Shown piece by piece: positions 14,845-22,046 of a stretch of 37,247 bases of DNA. Position 1 is the first letter of the stretch. Each line of letters begins with the position of its first letter. The notes beneath the pieces were generated by a model. That model did not search any database and had not been told where the DNA came from. It worked only from the letters and a program-made list of their open reading frames with translations. Made by a program: the position numbers and the translations under genes. Origin of the DNA: Acidobacteriota bacterium (GTDB lineage: Bacteria; Acidobacteriota; Blastocatellia; Pyrinomonadales; Pyrinomonadaceae); NCBI GenBank assembly GCA_019247455.1, contig JAFAOW010000236.1:1-37247 (forward strand), written 5' to 3'.

Positions 14845-15849
14845 TCATGGCTTTTTAACATAACTCTTGTGGACGATAAGCTTCGACTTTTCATCCCGAG
14901 CTTCATAAAGGACATTGTCCTTGTCTTCACGCGTCACGAGCTTGGCACCCGCACTTAGGGCCTGCTCTTTTGGCCGTGCTTTATCCGCATCGTCCAGGAA
15001 GCCTTTTACGGCGTCCGCCTTTACAGGATCCGCGAGCCGCACTCCCCTTGCCTGCGAAACGGCCTCGGTGGCGGAGGCCTTGAGCATTTTCGGCCATAGC
15101 TTTTTGAATAGGGCGTTCGACGCATAAACGTCCGCACTATTGATCTGGCCGTTCACAGCAAACGCGAAACCGATAACATCATCCTGGCCATTGAGCGCGT
15201 TAGAAAGGTGCCGGACATAGTCGTCCACGCTGGCGACAACGCGATCGTTCTCGAGACTGAGCTGAAGGCTTGATTCGGATGTCCGGGAAGTTATATTCCC
15301 GCCTCCGACGCCTTTCGCCAATCGTTCCTGCGCTTCAGAAACCTGTGCCCAGACATCGGACTGCGAACGCGCGCCGTTAGCCGCCATTTTCAGTTCTTTC
15401 GTAACGATCCTGTCGTTCGAGGAAGTGAACTTATCGGAATCCTCGTTGCCGCGCTTCGTCCACCGGCCGGACTCGACACAAAATGCCTCAATACTCACCC
15501 GCCCCGAGCGAGCAGGGATGATAATGCTGACGGCGAGTATTCGGTCCTGCTTGCCGCCTTTGACGATGTCGCCGGATTGGATGAATACATCGAATTCTTT
15601 CGAAAGGTTCTCTACTTCAAGTTCATTTACATCGCCCGTTTCATAAACGCGGAACAGGCCGCGCTCCAGAGCTTCCTGTAAGGTGAGGATATTCCCCTTC
15701 GTGTTCTCGTCCTTCCCGTGAATAAGAAAGATCGACAGGTTTTTGTACGTGAGTGGGGCGGAGACCCGATAACCGGCTGTTTGTGCGGCTGCGGCCGCTA
15801 TTAGAAGCAGACCAGTGGCGAGCAAGCCCGCAATTCTTCTTGCGTTCAT
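14845..15849 (-). CDS. Secreted protein with ARPP-1/DUF6569-like domain
   Basis: Signal peptide from MNARRIAGLLATGLLLIAAAAAQ (SD aaggag); 'LTYKNLSIFLIHG', 'LTLQEALERGLFRVYETGDVNELEVEN', 'VFIQSGDIVKGGKQDRILA'. Confidence 0.65.
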   Translation of the reverse strand: MNARRIAGLLATGLLLIAAAAAQTAGYRVSAPLTYKNLSIFLIHGKDENTKGNILTLQEALERGLFRVYETGDVNELEVENLSKEFDVFIQSGDIVKGGKQDRILAVSIIIPARSGRVSIEAFCVESGRWTKRGNEDSDKFTSSNDRIVTKELKMAANGARSQSDVWAQVSEAQERLAKGVGGGNITSRTSESSLQLSLENDRVVASVDDYVRHLSNALNGQDDVIGFAFAVNGQINSADVYASNALFKKLWPKMLKASATEAVSQARGVRLADPVKADAVKGFLDDADKARPKEQALSAGAKLVTREDKDNVLYEARDEKSKLIVHKSYVKKP

Positions 15850-16015
15850 AATTACTCCTTCAAGAGATATCAGGAGAGTGTCGCCGTTTAATACCTGAAC
15901 GCTTGTCAATGAACTTCTTGCAGCCGGTTCTGATGAATTTGGCATTCTGGGCGTTTGAGTTTAGAATTCCCTATCCCATTAACTTAAAAGTCAGCGAATC
16001 GAGGAGATAGCGTCT

Positions 16016-16974: not shown

Positions 16975-17592
16975 CTAATTCAGCGTCGGGGCGTCCGCGT
17001 GCGGAACGAAACACCTGCGGCAGCGGGCCTCATATTTATCCGAGGCTCCTACCTCTACGCGCGCTTCTGACTCGACCGTGCGTTGGGAGTAATTGGCCGT
17101 CGCCCCGCATTTGACGCATATCGCGTGCGTCTTTGTAATGAATTCCGCTATGGAGAGGAGCTGAGGCATAGGTTCAAACGGTTTGCCGGTGTAGTCCTGG
17201 TCGAGTCCGGCGATGATCACACGTTTTCCTGCTTCAGCGAGGTGATTTACCGCAGCGATCAGCTCCATATCGAAGAATTGCGCTTCATCGATTCCGACGA
17301 CCTGCGTATCGTCATCGATCTGGGACATCATTTGGGCCGTTGATGAAACCGGCACCGACAGATGCTTTTGTCCCGAGTGCGAAGCTATCTCCTCCACCGA
17401 GTACCGGGCATCTATGCCAGGTTTGAATACCTGGACCTTTTGCCTTGCGATCCTCGCGCGTGTCAAACGGCGGATCAACTCCTCTGACTTACCCGAAAAC
17501 ATCGAGCCGGCGATGACCTCGATCCACCCCGTACCATTTTGACGTACCTTGCGGCGTTCCTCTGCGTTGTCGAACGCAAACTCCTCAACCAT
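16975..17592 (-). CDS. tdk: Thymidine kinase
   Basis: '[36 protein letters not shown]', '[10 protein letters not shown]', zinc motifs 'CVKCGA' and 'CRRC'. Confidence 0.96.
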
Positions 17593-17662: not shown

Positions 17663-19231
17663 TTACTGAATGCGAAGGTCGGCGCCCGTCATTTCGGCAG
17701 GTTTTTCGATGCCCAGGATAGCTAAAACCGTTGGTGCAATATCGGCGAGTGTTCCTTCATCGCGAAGACTTATTCCGTCGGATCGATGATCGATCAGATG
17801 AAAGGGCACCGGATTGATCGTGGGCGCGCGATGGGAATTGCTCTCGCCGCTGCTGGACATTGCCTCGGCGCTTCCATACGACGAGGTAACCAAAACCACG
17901 CCGCTGGAGCGTTCGATCCGTTCACAGATGCCGCCAAGGCATGTGTCGACAAATTGGATCGCTGACACTGTTCTCTCAAAATCCCCCGTCTCCGACATGA
18001 TTCCGGCAGCTGGAATATTGACCACAAAAACGCTTTCGGGCGACGTTTCTACCGCCCGGATCAGGCGATCGGCGATCTTAAAGCTCTGAGACTCCGGAAA
18101 AGCGTCTGAGATGCCTACGGGCAGCGGCGGGAGTATCACTTCATGTTCAAAAGGCCGCAACGCCTCTGTTCCCCCATCGAATGATGTTGTAACTTCAGCA
18201 GACCGAACAGATTCAGTGATCTTTGTAACCGGCAGCCGATGCGATGCAAGGACGTCAACAAGCGAATTGTTTTCCGGCGACGGTGTAAAGGCAACGGGCA
18301 GCCCGAAGGCGGCGTCGTATTCAGTCAGACAAATAGTATCGATCTCTGGCTTTGTGCCGATCGCGCCCTCGGGGACACAGAGGGAACGCGTCAGTTGTCG
18401 CATGCCATCGGCCCTATGATTAAAGAAGACGACCAAATCGCCGTTCCTGACAGTTGCTACAGGAATATCTCTCTCCCTTTCGATCACGACCGGCGCAATA
18501 AATTCATCCGAGATGCCCCTTAAGAATGAATTGCGGATCGCCGCGACCGGATCCCTGTTTCGCTCACCCTCTGCATGTACCAGAAGGGTAAACGTGCGGG
18601 CCGTCCTTTCCCAGTGTTCTCCCGAGTCCATCGCGAAGAACCGACCGCACAAAGTCGCGATCTGACCCAAGCCGATATCCGCAAGCTTGATCTCGAGTGC
18701 CTCGACATACACGTCTGCTGTTCGAGGGGCCACATCCAGACCGTCGAGAATGCCATGAATAAAAACCTTTTGCAGGCCGCACGATTTCGCAAGGCGTAAG
18801 AGCGCAAAAAGATTCTCCGGTGACGAATGCACGCCGCCGTCACTTAAGAGGCCGACGAGATGCACGGCGGAATCGCGTTCCTTCGCCCTCTTAAAGGCCG
18901 AGTTCAGGATCTCATTCTTCTGAAATTCGCCGTTGGAAATGGCTTGTTTGATACGACTTGCGTCGGTCTGAGCGAGCCGGCCGGTTCCGATATTTAGATG
19001 GCCGATCTCCGAATTGCTCGGTTCGCCATTCGGCATCGCGGTCGCGAGAGTTGTCATTGGGAATCGCCGGCAGATCTCGTCGTAATAGGGCGTATGAGCA
19101 ACGGCTATCGCATTTGATTCCGTTCGCGGCGCGTAGCCCCAGCCGTCAAGGATGACAAGTGCGACGGGACGGCCGATATTCGTTCGTTCAGGATCCATGA
19201 GATTTTTGACGGAAGATGGCCGCTCAGGCAA
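17663..19231 (-). CDS. Homologue of cofactor-independent phosphoglycerate mutase with degenerate active site
   Basis: Colinear with GpmI: 'VALVILDGWGYAPRTESNAI', 'NSEIGHLNIGTGR', 'LLSDGGVHS', 'DEFIAPVVI', 'LADIAPTVLAILGIEKPAEMTG'; metal-ligand motifs altered (see findings). Confidence 0.9.
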   Translation of the reverse strand: MPERPSSVKNLMDPERTNIGRPVALVILDGWGYAPRTESNAIAVAHTPYYDEICRRFPMTTLATAMPNGEPSNSEIGHLNIGTGRLAQTDASRIKQAISNGEFQKNEILNSAFKRAKERDSAVHLVGLLSDGGVHSSPENLFALLRLAKSCGLQKVFIHGILDGLDVAPRTADVYVEALEIKLADIGLGQIATLCGRFFAMDSGEHWERTARTFTLLVHAEGERNRDPVAAIRNSFLRGISDEFIAPVVIERERDIPVATVRNGDLVVFFNHRADGMRQLTRSLCVPEGAIGTKPEIDTICLTEYDAAFGLPVAFTPSPENNSLVDVLASHRLPVTKITESVRSAEVTTSFDGGTEALRPFEHEVILPPLPVGISDAFPESQSFKIADRLIRAVETSPESVFVVNIPAAGIMSETGDFERTVSAIQFVDTCLGGICERIERSSGVVLVTSSYGSAEAMSSSGESNSHRAPTINPVPFHLIDHRSDGISLRDEGTLADIAPTVLAILGIEKPAEMTGADLRIQ

Positions 19232-19287: not shown

Positions 19288-19719
19288 CTAATAAGCGTCA
19301 AGAGAGGTGCGCTCCATCCACCGGTCAGGATGCACGAGAGCAGAGAATCCGTGCTGCTTGTACAGGCCGTGAGCGTCTCTGGTCGCGAGCAGCCAACGCC
19401 GCATCCCTTGCAGGTCGGGCTGCTCGGTCATGACCTGCAGCAACCATTTACTCAGCCCCTTGCCGCGATGAGGCTCGACAACATAGACGTCGCCTACGTA
19501 TGCAAAAGTGGCCTTGTCAGTCACCAGGCGAGCAAAACCAACTTGTTCGCGCCCCTTGTAAATCCCAAAGCAAAGAGAGTTCTCGATCGCTGTCAGGGTC
19601 TTTTCCAGCGGGCGCTTTTTTGCCCAATACGATTCCTGCGACAGAAATCGATGAATAGCGGCGATATCGAGCCGCCTCTTGTCGGTATCTATCTCGTATT
19701 CACCCCGTCTAACTCTCAT
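19288..19719 (-). CDS. GNAT family N-acetyltransferase
   Basis: 'VGDVYVVEPHRGKGLSKWLLQVM...LATRDAHGLYKQHGF'. Confidence 0.92.
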   Translation of the reverse strand: MRVRRGEYEIDTDKRRLDIAAIHRFLSQESYWAKKRPLEKTLTAIENSLCFGIYKGREQVGFARLVTDKATFAYVGDVYVVEPHRGKGLSKWLLQVMTEQPDLQGMRRWLLATRDAHGLYKQHGFSALVHPDRWMERTSLDAY

Positions 19720-20214
19720 AAGGATCCCTCAAAAAGTCCTCCACCTCCGCCGTGCTCCTGAGAATTACGATACGCTTACCCCGGGCATTCGAGAGGTCGT
19801 CCATAACCCGCTTAAGGGATCTGTTCTTATATGTCCAGACCCACTCGATGAACTCGAGATCGAATTTCTCCACGCAGCCGGGTGCCATCTCTGGGCGGAC
19901 CTGGCCATAGTACCTCGCGGTACGCCTCAGGATGCGCCACATGCATAGCCAGCGGGGCATGTCGAGGAGAATGACCGTATCCGCCGCTTCCAGCCGCACC
20001 TGCCGCGAGCTGCCGTAGTTGCCGTCGATGATCCACGCGGGCTTCGCGACCTCAACCCGGAGAATATTCGCCCATTCGGGATCTTCAGTTCGGACCCAAC
20101 CGGGTTTCCAGAAGAGGGCGTCAAGATGAACGACGGGGATATTCGTAACCCCACCTAGTCGTTGTGCGAACGTTGTTTTCCCCGCGCCTCCTGAGCCAAG
20201 TACGATAACGCGCT

Positions 20215-20218
<4 letters not shown>
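19709..20218 (-). CDS. P-loop small kinase (FlaR / topology-modulation / adenylate kinase-like)
   Basis: 'MKRVIVLGSGGAGKTTFAQRLGGVTNIPVVHLDALFWKPGW', 'WIIDGNYGSS', 'DTVILLDMPRWLCMWRILRR'. Confidence 0.88.

Positions 20219-22046
<1,828 letters not shown>

Follow-up and report, generated by a model that had tools for sequence, protein, structure and literature searches.

A phosphoglycerate mutase homologue, probably a maintained pseudoenzyme, at the enolase locus of Acidobacteriota that carry dPGM

The window analysed here is a stretch of 37,247 nucleotides (contig JAFAOW010000236.1, assembly GCA_019247455.1) from a soil-type Acidobacterium whose close relatives are Pyrinomonadaceae/Chloracidobacterium MAGs (Acidobacteriota). 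It carries a gene for a homologue of cofactor-independent phosphoglycerate mutase (iPGM, GpmI) in which many active-site residues are replaced, and this raises the question of whether the gene is decaying, encodes an enzyme with another chemistry or is kept for a protein that no longer catalyses. The reading favoured, with a probability of about 0.82, is that the iPGM was displaced by an unrelated enzyme, the cofactor-dependent phosphoglycerate mutase (dPGM), and became a maintained pseudoenzyme.

An earlier note, made from the letters of the window, had described an uninterrupted frame at 17663-19231 with end-to-end homology to iPGM. The homology holds, as the protein matches the Pfam families iPGM_N (1.2e-63) and Metalloenzyme (4.1e-40), exceeds the cut-off of the full-length family model TIGR01307 (430.6 bits against 330.65) and matches PDB entries 2ify and 1ejj at about 1e-110. 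Position and frame were also right; the strand, which had been left unstated, is minus, and the in-frame ATG at 19198 is preferred over the TTG as the start, since the alignments of most close relatives begin at residue 11-12 of the 522-aa frame (Table 1). An AlphaFold2 model built with 72 related sequences (pLDDT 92.2, pTM 0.85) has the two-domain iPGM fold, and the best PDB matches found with Foldseek are iPGMs, with TM scores of 0.81-0.87 for the closest (1ejj, 4my4) and an identity of 37-38% to the structures from Bacillus; phosphopentomutase and alkaline phosphatase rank behind them. The iPGM fold is thus predicted to be intact, though a homologue-guided prediction of this kind says nothing on the metal site.

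Table 1 Features of the window around the iPGM gene. Residue numbers are those of the B. stearothermophilus enzyme.
Feature	Position	Strand	Remark
Enolase (eno)	20718..22007	minus	syntenic with iPGM in intact and degenerate genera
GNAT acetyltransferase	19288..19719	minus	directly upstream of iPGM gene; retained where iPGM is deleted
TTG-initiated extension of iPGM frame	to 19231	minus	522 codons, uninterrupted
Degenerate iPGM (GpmI orthologue)	17663..19198	minus	511 aa from preferred ATG
Asp12 equivalent (metal ligand)	19145..19147	minus	kept
Ser62 equivalent	19010..19012	minus	kept in window; Ala/Pro in most genus relatives
Transferase domain (residues 77-310)	18281..18967	minus	constraint retained
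Arg153 to Leu, then retained Asp154	18734..18739	minus
Arg191 to Ser	18623..18625	minus
Arg264 to Gly	18404..18406	minus
Lys336 to Arg	18203..18205	minus	fixed across whole genus
Metal-ligand motif, Asp403 to Gly and His407 to Glu	17990..18004	minus
Metal-ligand motif, Asp444 to Ser and His445 to Tyr	17876..17881	minus	Tyr common only to window and G007
Metal ligand His462 to Pro	17822..17824	minus
Thymidine kinase (tdk)	16975..17592	minus	directly downstream of iPGM gene

Residues are numbered after the B. stearothermophilus iPGM (1EJJ), which served as the reference, and the substrate roles of the positions follow established knowledge of that enzyme. Of the binuclear metal site (D12, S62, D403, H407, D444, H445, H462) the window protein keeps D12 and S62 alone, the other five of the seven ligands being replaced (D403G, H407E, D444S, H445Y, H462P). 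Among the substrate residues (H123, R153, D154, R185, R191, R261, R264, K336) three arginines are gone (R153L, R191S, R264G) and K336R is present, while H123, D154, R185 and R261 are kept. With one exception these substitutions had all been named in the earlier note, as had D12 and S62 as the sole surviving metal ligands, and they are present in the alignment; the exception is the change of DGRD to DGLD, which is real but concerns Arg153 and not Arg154, position 154 being the retained Asp. A 5-residue deletion in the loop just upstream of Ser62 had been missed. The motifs align to iPGM with no gaps nearby, and in some 70 intact iPGMs of other assemblies all the residues stand in the same columns, so a realignment artefact is unlikely; a shift of the ligands to elsewhere in the protein, which had been named as a ground for giving up the pseudoenzyme reading, was not seen in the alignment. 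The protein is like iPGM/GpmI (TIGR01307, alkaline-phosphatase superfamily) in its two-domain fold, its orthologous locus and the six residues kept, and differs from it in five of seven metal ligands, three arginines, K336R and a shorter loop before Ser62, so that catalysis would, by the known chemistry of iPGM, not be expected and has presumably been lost. In the C. elegans iPGM structure the equivalent metal ligands are Asp426, His430 and His485 at site 1 and Asp37, Ser86, Asp467 and His468 at site 2 (PMC5382265).

The gene order CNNM-eno-(GNAT)-iPGM is common to genera with intact and with degenerate iPGM, which identifies the window gene as the resident, displaced iPGM and not a paralogue. 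It was the sole iPGM homologue found in the genome, a 3.28 Mb draft of 310 contigs with 97% completeness. At the level of sequence comparison, the gene is thus shown to be the vertically inherited iPGM of the eno locus and not a spare copy. In some members of the genus it is missing: tdk directly follows the GNAT gene in four genomes (G018, G028, G035, G036), a remnant of 22 residues is left in G029 and the gene is frameshifted in G002, so that it is dispensable. In G001 and G009 a contig breaks at the locus, and these two genomes do not count as losses. Two further proteins are encoded in the window between eno and the GNAT gene (19709-20721, minus), one of 168 aa that matches nothing in Pfam and a P-loop protein akin to the 'DNA topology modulation' family; either was found at the locus in part of the relatives only, and a protein with an ARPP-1 domain (14845-15945, minus) is near the locus in several relatives too.

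The earlier note had proposed looking for a second phosphoglycerate mutase in the genome, and one is present. The C-terminal 150 residues of a dPGM, including the HGN motif, were found at a contig edge, the N-terminal part not being recovered, and relatives carry full-length dPGM with RHG and HGN motifs intact in those checked. A search for an archaeal-type enzyme as a further backup gave nothing above the cut-off. Across the order an iPGM homologue was found in 101 of 119 genomes and dPGM in 65 of 119, and 15 active-site positions were tabulated for each iPGM sequence. All 33 usable orthologues of the window's genus, the window included, are degenerate, with 7 to 10 changes each, and the substituted form, whose conservation in relatives had been left as a point to be checked, thus recurs in about 33 species of the genus and in several other genera. 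Genomes with dPGM had 0 to 10 changes, and those of the family without detected dPGM kept every one of the 15 positions that was readable. The exceptions are G064 and G065 (85% and 91% complete), drafts of genus g21 whose close relatives have dPGM and in which a looser search gave weak histidine-phosphatase matches only. When sequences with two or more changes were counted as degenerate and those with fewer than two as intact or nearly so, the 101 tree sequences, which are not phylogenetically independent, divided into 47 degenerate and 6 intact with dPGM, and 2 degenerate and 46 intact without it; a sign test of this association had no power, the independent contrasts being too few. Ten further sequences of the class were intact at every readable position. 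It appears that the active site died because the unrelated enzyme took over the reaction. One genome (G119, 6% contamination) has dPGM in a genus otherwise without it and with intact iPGM, a case of either recent gain or contamination.

None of the 15 active-site positions was changed in every degenerate lineage, and as no lesion is common to all of them inactivation was probably partly parallel. Two genomes of g21 (G061, G062) keep all metal ligands and have lost R153, R191 and R264; G068 keeps all substrate residues and has lost S62, H407, D444 and H462; G075 and G077 carry R191K, R264Q and H462P. In a tree made without the active-site columns an intact genus, g31, fell inside the dPGM-carrying group, with weak backbone support, and parsimony on this weakly supported backbone required 3-4 changes. 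A single loss for the main dPGM-carrying group was not rejected (p-AU 0.39); joining g24 (G078, G079) to this group was rejected (p-AU 0.012), and g24 is a separate case. In another family of the class (G057, L243:11477-13897) a dPGM gene precedes, by 120 bases, an iPGM gene whose product carries D12S and H445N, a tandem that is apparently an independent early stage of the same process.

Selection was assessed as dN/dS (NG86) between close pairs. Four degenerate pairs of the genus gave 0.052 (G003/G017), 0.084 (G010/G019), 0.045 (G012/G015) and 0.087 (G021/G022), equally low as the 0.07-0.25 of intact pairs, and degenerate iPGM is shown by these substitution ratios to be under purifying selection in the genus. 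The suggestion in the earlier note that an intact frame points to selection rather than decay is borne out to the extent that simple decay is excluded in the close pairs at hand. For the window species, which lacks a close relative, what bears on selection is its open frame and conserved sites only. Under neutrality its branch should have gathered about 4 to 9 nonsense changes, and it shows none (P about 0.02 to 1e-4), and at sites invariant in 31 other genus members it differs at 0 of 50 in the transferase and 2 of 38 in the phosphatase domain.

Degenerate lineages evolve faster, the distance of iPGM relative to enolase being 4.56 against 1.78 in intact lineages, so that some relaxation is real. 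The rise is from 1.37 to 5.59 in the phosphatase domain and from 2.16 to 3.34 in the transferase domain. In the phosphatase domain the number of columns with at least 95% conservation drops from 118 in intact to 56 in degenerate sequences, while the transferase domain has 65 and 71; the intact and degenerate sets are of unequal phylogenetic depth, which makes it safer to compare the domains with each other. By these measures constraint is shown to have shifted from the phosphatase domain onto the transferase domain.

The alternative that fares best against these data, improbable as it is, holds that the iPGM has been degrading since dPGM took over and that its frame is still open in the window species by chance. 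It would account for the absences, remnant and frameshift described above and for a split copy in the genus, for the faster evolution, and for the additional lesions of the window protein, such as H445Y, which G007 shares, and the lost loop residues. The dN/dS values of the degenerate pairs nevertheless largely refute it for the genus, frames are open in about 33 species, most of them 48-65% identical to the window protein, the lack of nonsense changes on the window branch would be surprising, and the transferase domain is conserved as in intact iPGM.

Rather less probable is that the protein still works as an enzyme but by a different chemistry, as a phosphatase or transferase that uses another substrate and has either no metal or a different one. 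The earlier note had named an enzyme with new chemistry as a possibility, and this finds no support. The fold and part of the substrate pocket are retained, and 31 columns were considered as candidates for residues switched to a new function. Most of these (e.g. F260H, F149I, E225L) already occur in the intact, dPGM-carrying genera g31 and g33 and hence are older than the inactivation; the main genus-specific switches left are K336R, A400P and A376S, which, being nearly fixed in the genus, would fit a new activity. The proposal does not sit well with the nucleophile Ser62 being replaced by Ala or Pro in most members of the genus, nor with metal-ligand positions that vary between species without converging on one new set. 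An assembly or contamination artefact, conceivable for a draft in 310 contigs, is refuted by the recurrence of the degenerate form at a conserved locus in dozens of independent assemblies, near-complete ones of 2 to 8 contigs (G026, G022, G014) included, and its probability is negligible.

The displaced and maintained pseudoenzyme therefore remains the preferred reading. Two marks of a pseudoenzyme were found, catalytic residues missing from an enzyme homologue and purifying selection in the degenerate state (in close genus pairs), and the proposal of the earlier note, judged from residue losses, conservation in relatives and low dN/dS, finds support from sequence data. In the sequence of events envisaged, the resident iPGM of the eno locus would have found itself in a lineage with a dPGM able to cover the 2PG/3PG reaction, after which the binuclear metal site would have been lost along with part of the substrate site. 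That the apparently dead protein is maintained suggests a non-catalytic job not described before. Tentatively, and with the odds somewhat against it, the transferase domain, which retains half of the substrate pocket with His123, Asp154, Arg185 and Arg261 and, at 336, a basic residue, may bind phosphoglycerate or a similar ligand without turnover, and the protein could act as a ligand-dependent partner, regulator or scaffold of an enzyme of lower glycolysis, for instance dPGM or enolase. A wider and more doubtful extension would have displaced iPGMs repeatedly turning into phosphoglycerate-sensing regulators acting on dPGM or enolase in several acidobacterial lineages, with G057 at an early stage.

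A control function in lower glycolysis has a counterpart in the cyanobacterial PirC-PGAM system, where iPGM is the control point and the predicted position of the regulator is the interdomain cleft (PMC12077085); there iPGM is active and the target of a regulator, whereas the iPGM of the window is itself predicted to be dead. Within the literature searched, which leaves out most subscription journals, no earlier account of an iPGM pseudoenzyme came up. Pseudoenzymes and the displacement between iPGM and dPGM are already known, and what appears new is their combination, seen in a graded series of stages. The genomes offer a natural series in which a core glycolytic enzyme is first active, then partly damaged and finally conserved though apparently dead; the enzyme that replaces it can be seen alongside it, and the locus does not change. 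This makes it a testable question why displaced enzymes sometimes stay as pseudoenzymes rather than vanish. As the score of the degenerate protein exceeds the NCBIfam equivalog threshold for active phosphoglycerate mutase, automatic annotation would call it gpmI, and metabolic models would likewise count it as a working glycolytic step.

In the survey of Foster et al. 2010 (PMC2964296), in which genomes were called by homology search, the patchy distribution of iPGM and dPGM is explained by gain and loss. The passages considered describe redundancy, gene loss and pseudogenes with stop codons or truncations, and contain no full-length displaced iPGM under selection without its catalytic residues, unlike the case presented here. 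The authors also suggest that dPGM lacking a region of about 25 aa is monomeric. In family f3 iPGM was not found by homology search in G038, G042, G046, G050 and G054; in these five genomes and in G142-G145, of the same family, dPGM matches its model in two pieces, with about 24 model positions (122 to 146) absent between them, and it resembles the form without that region (PMC2964296).
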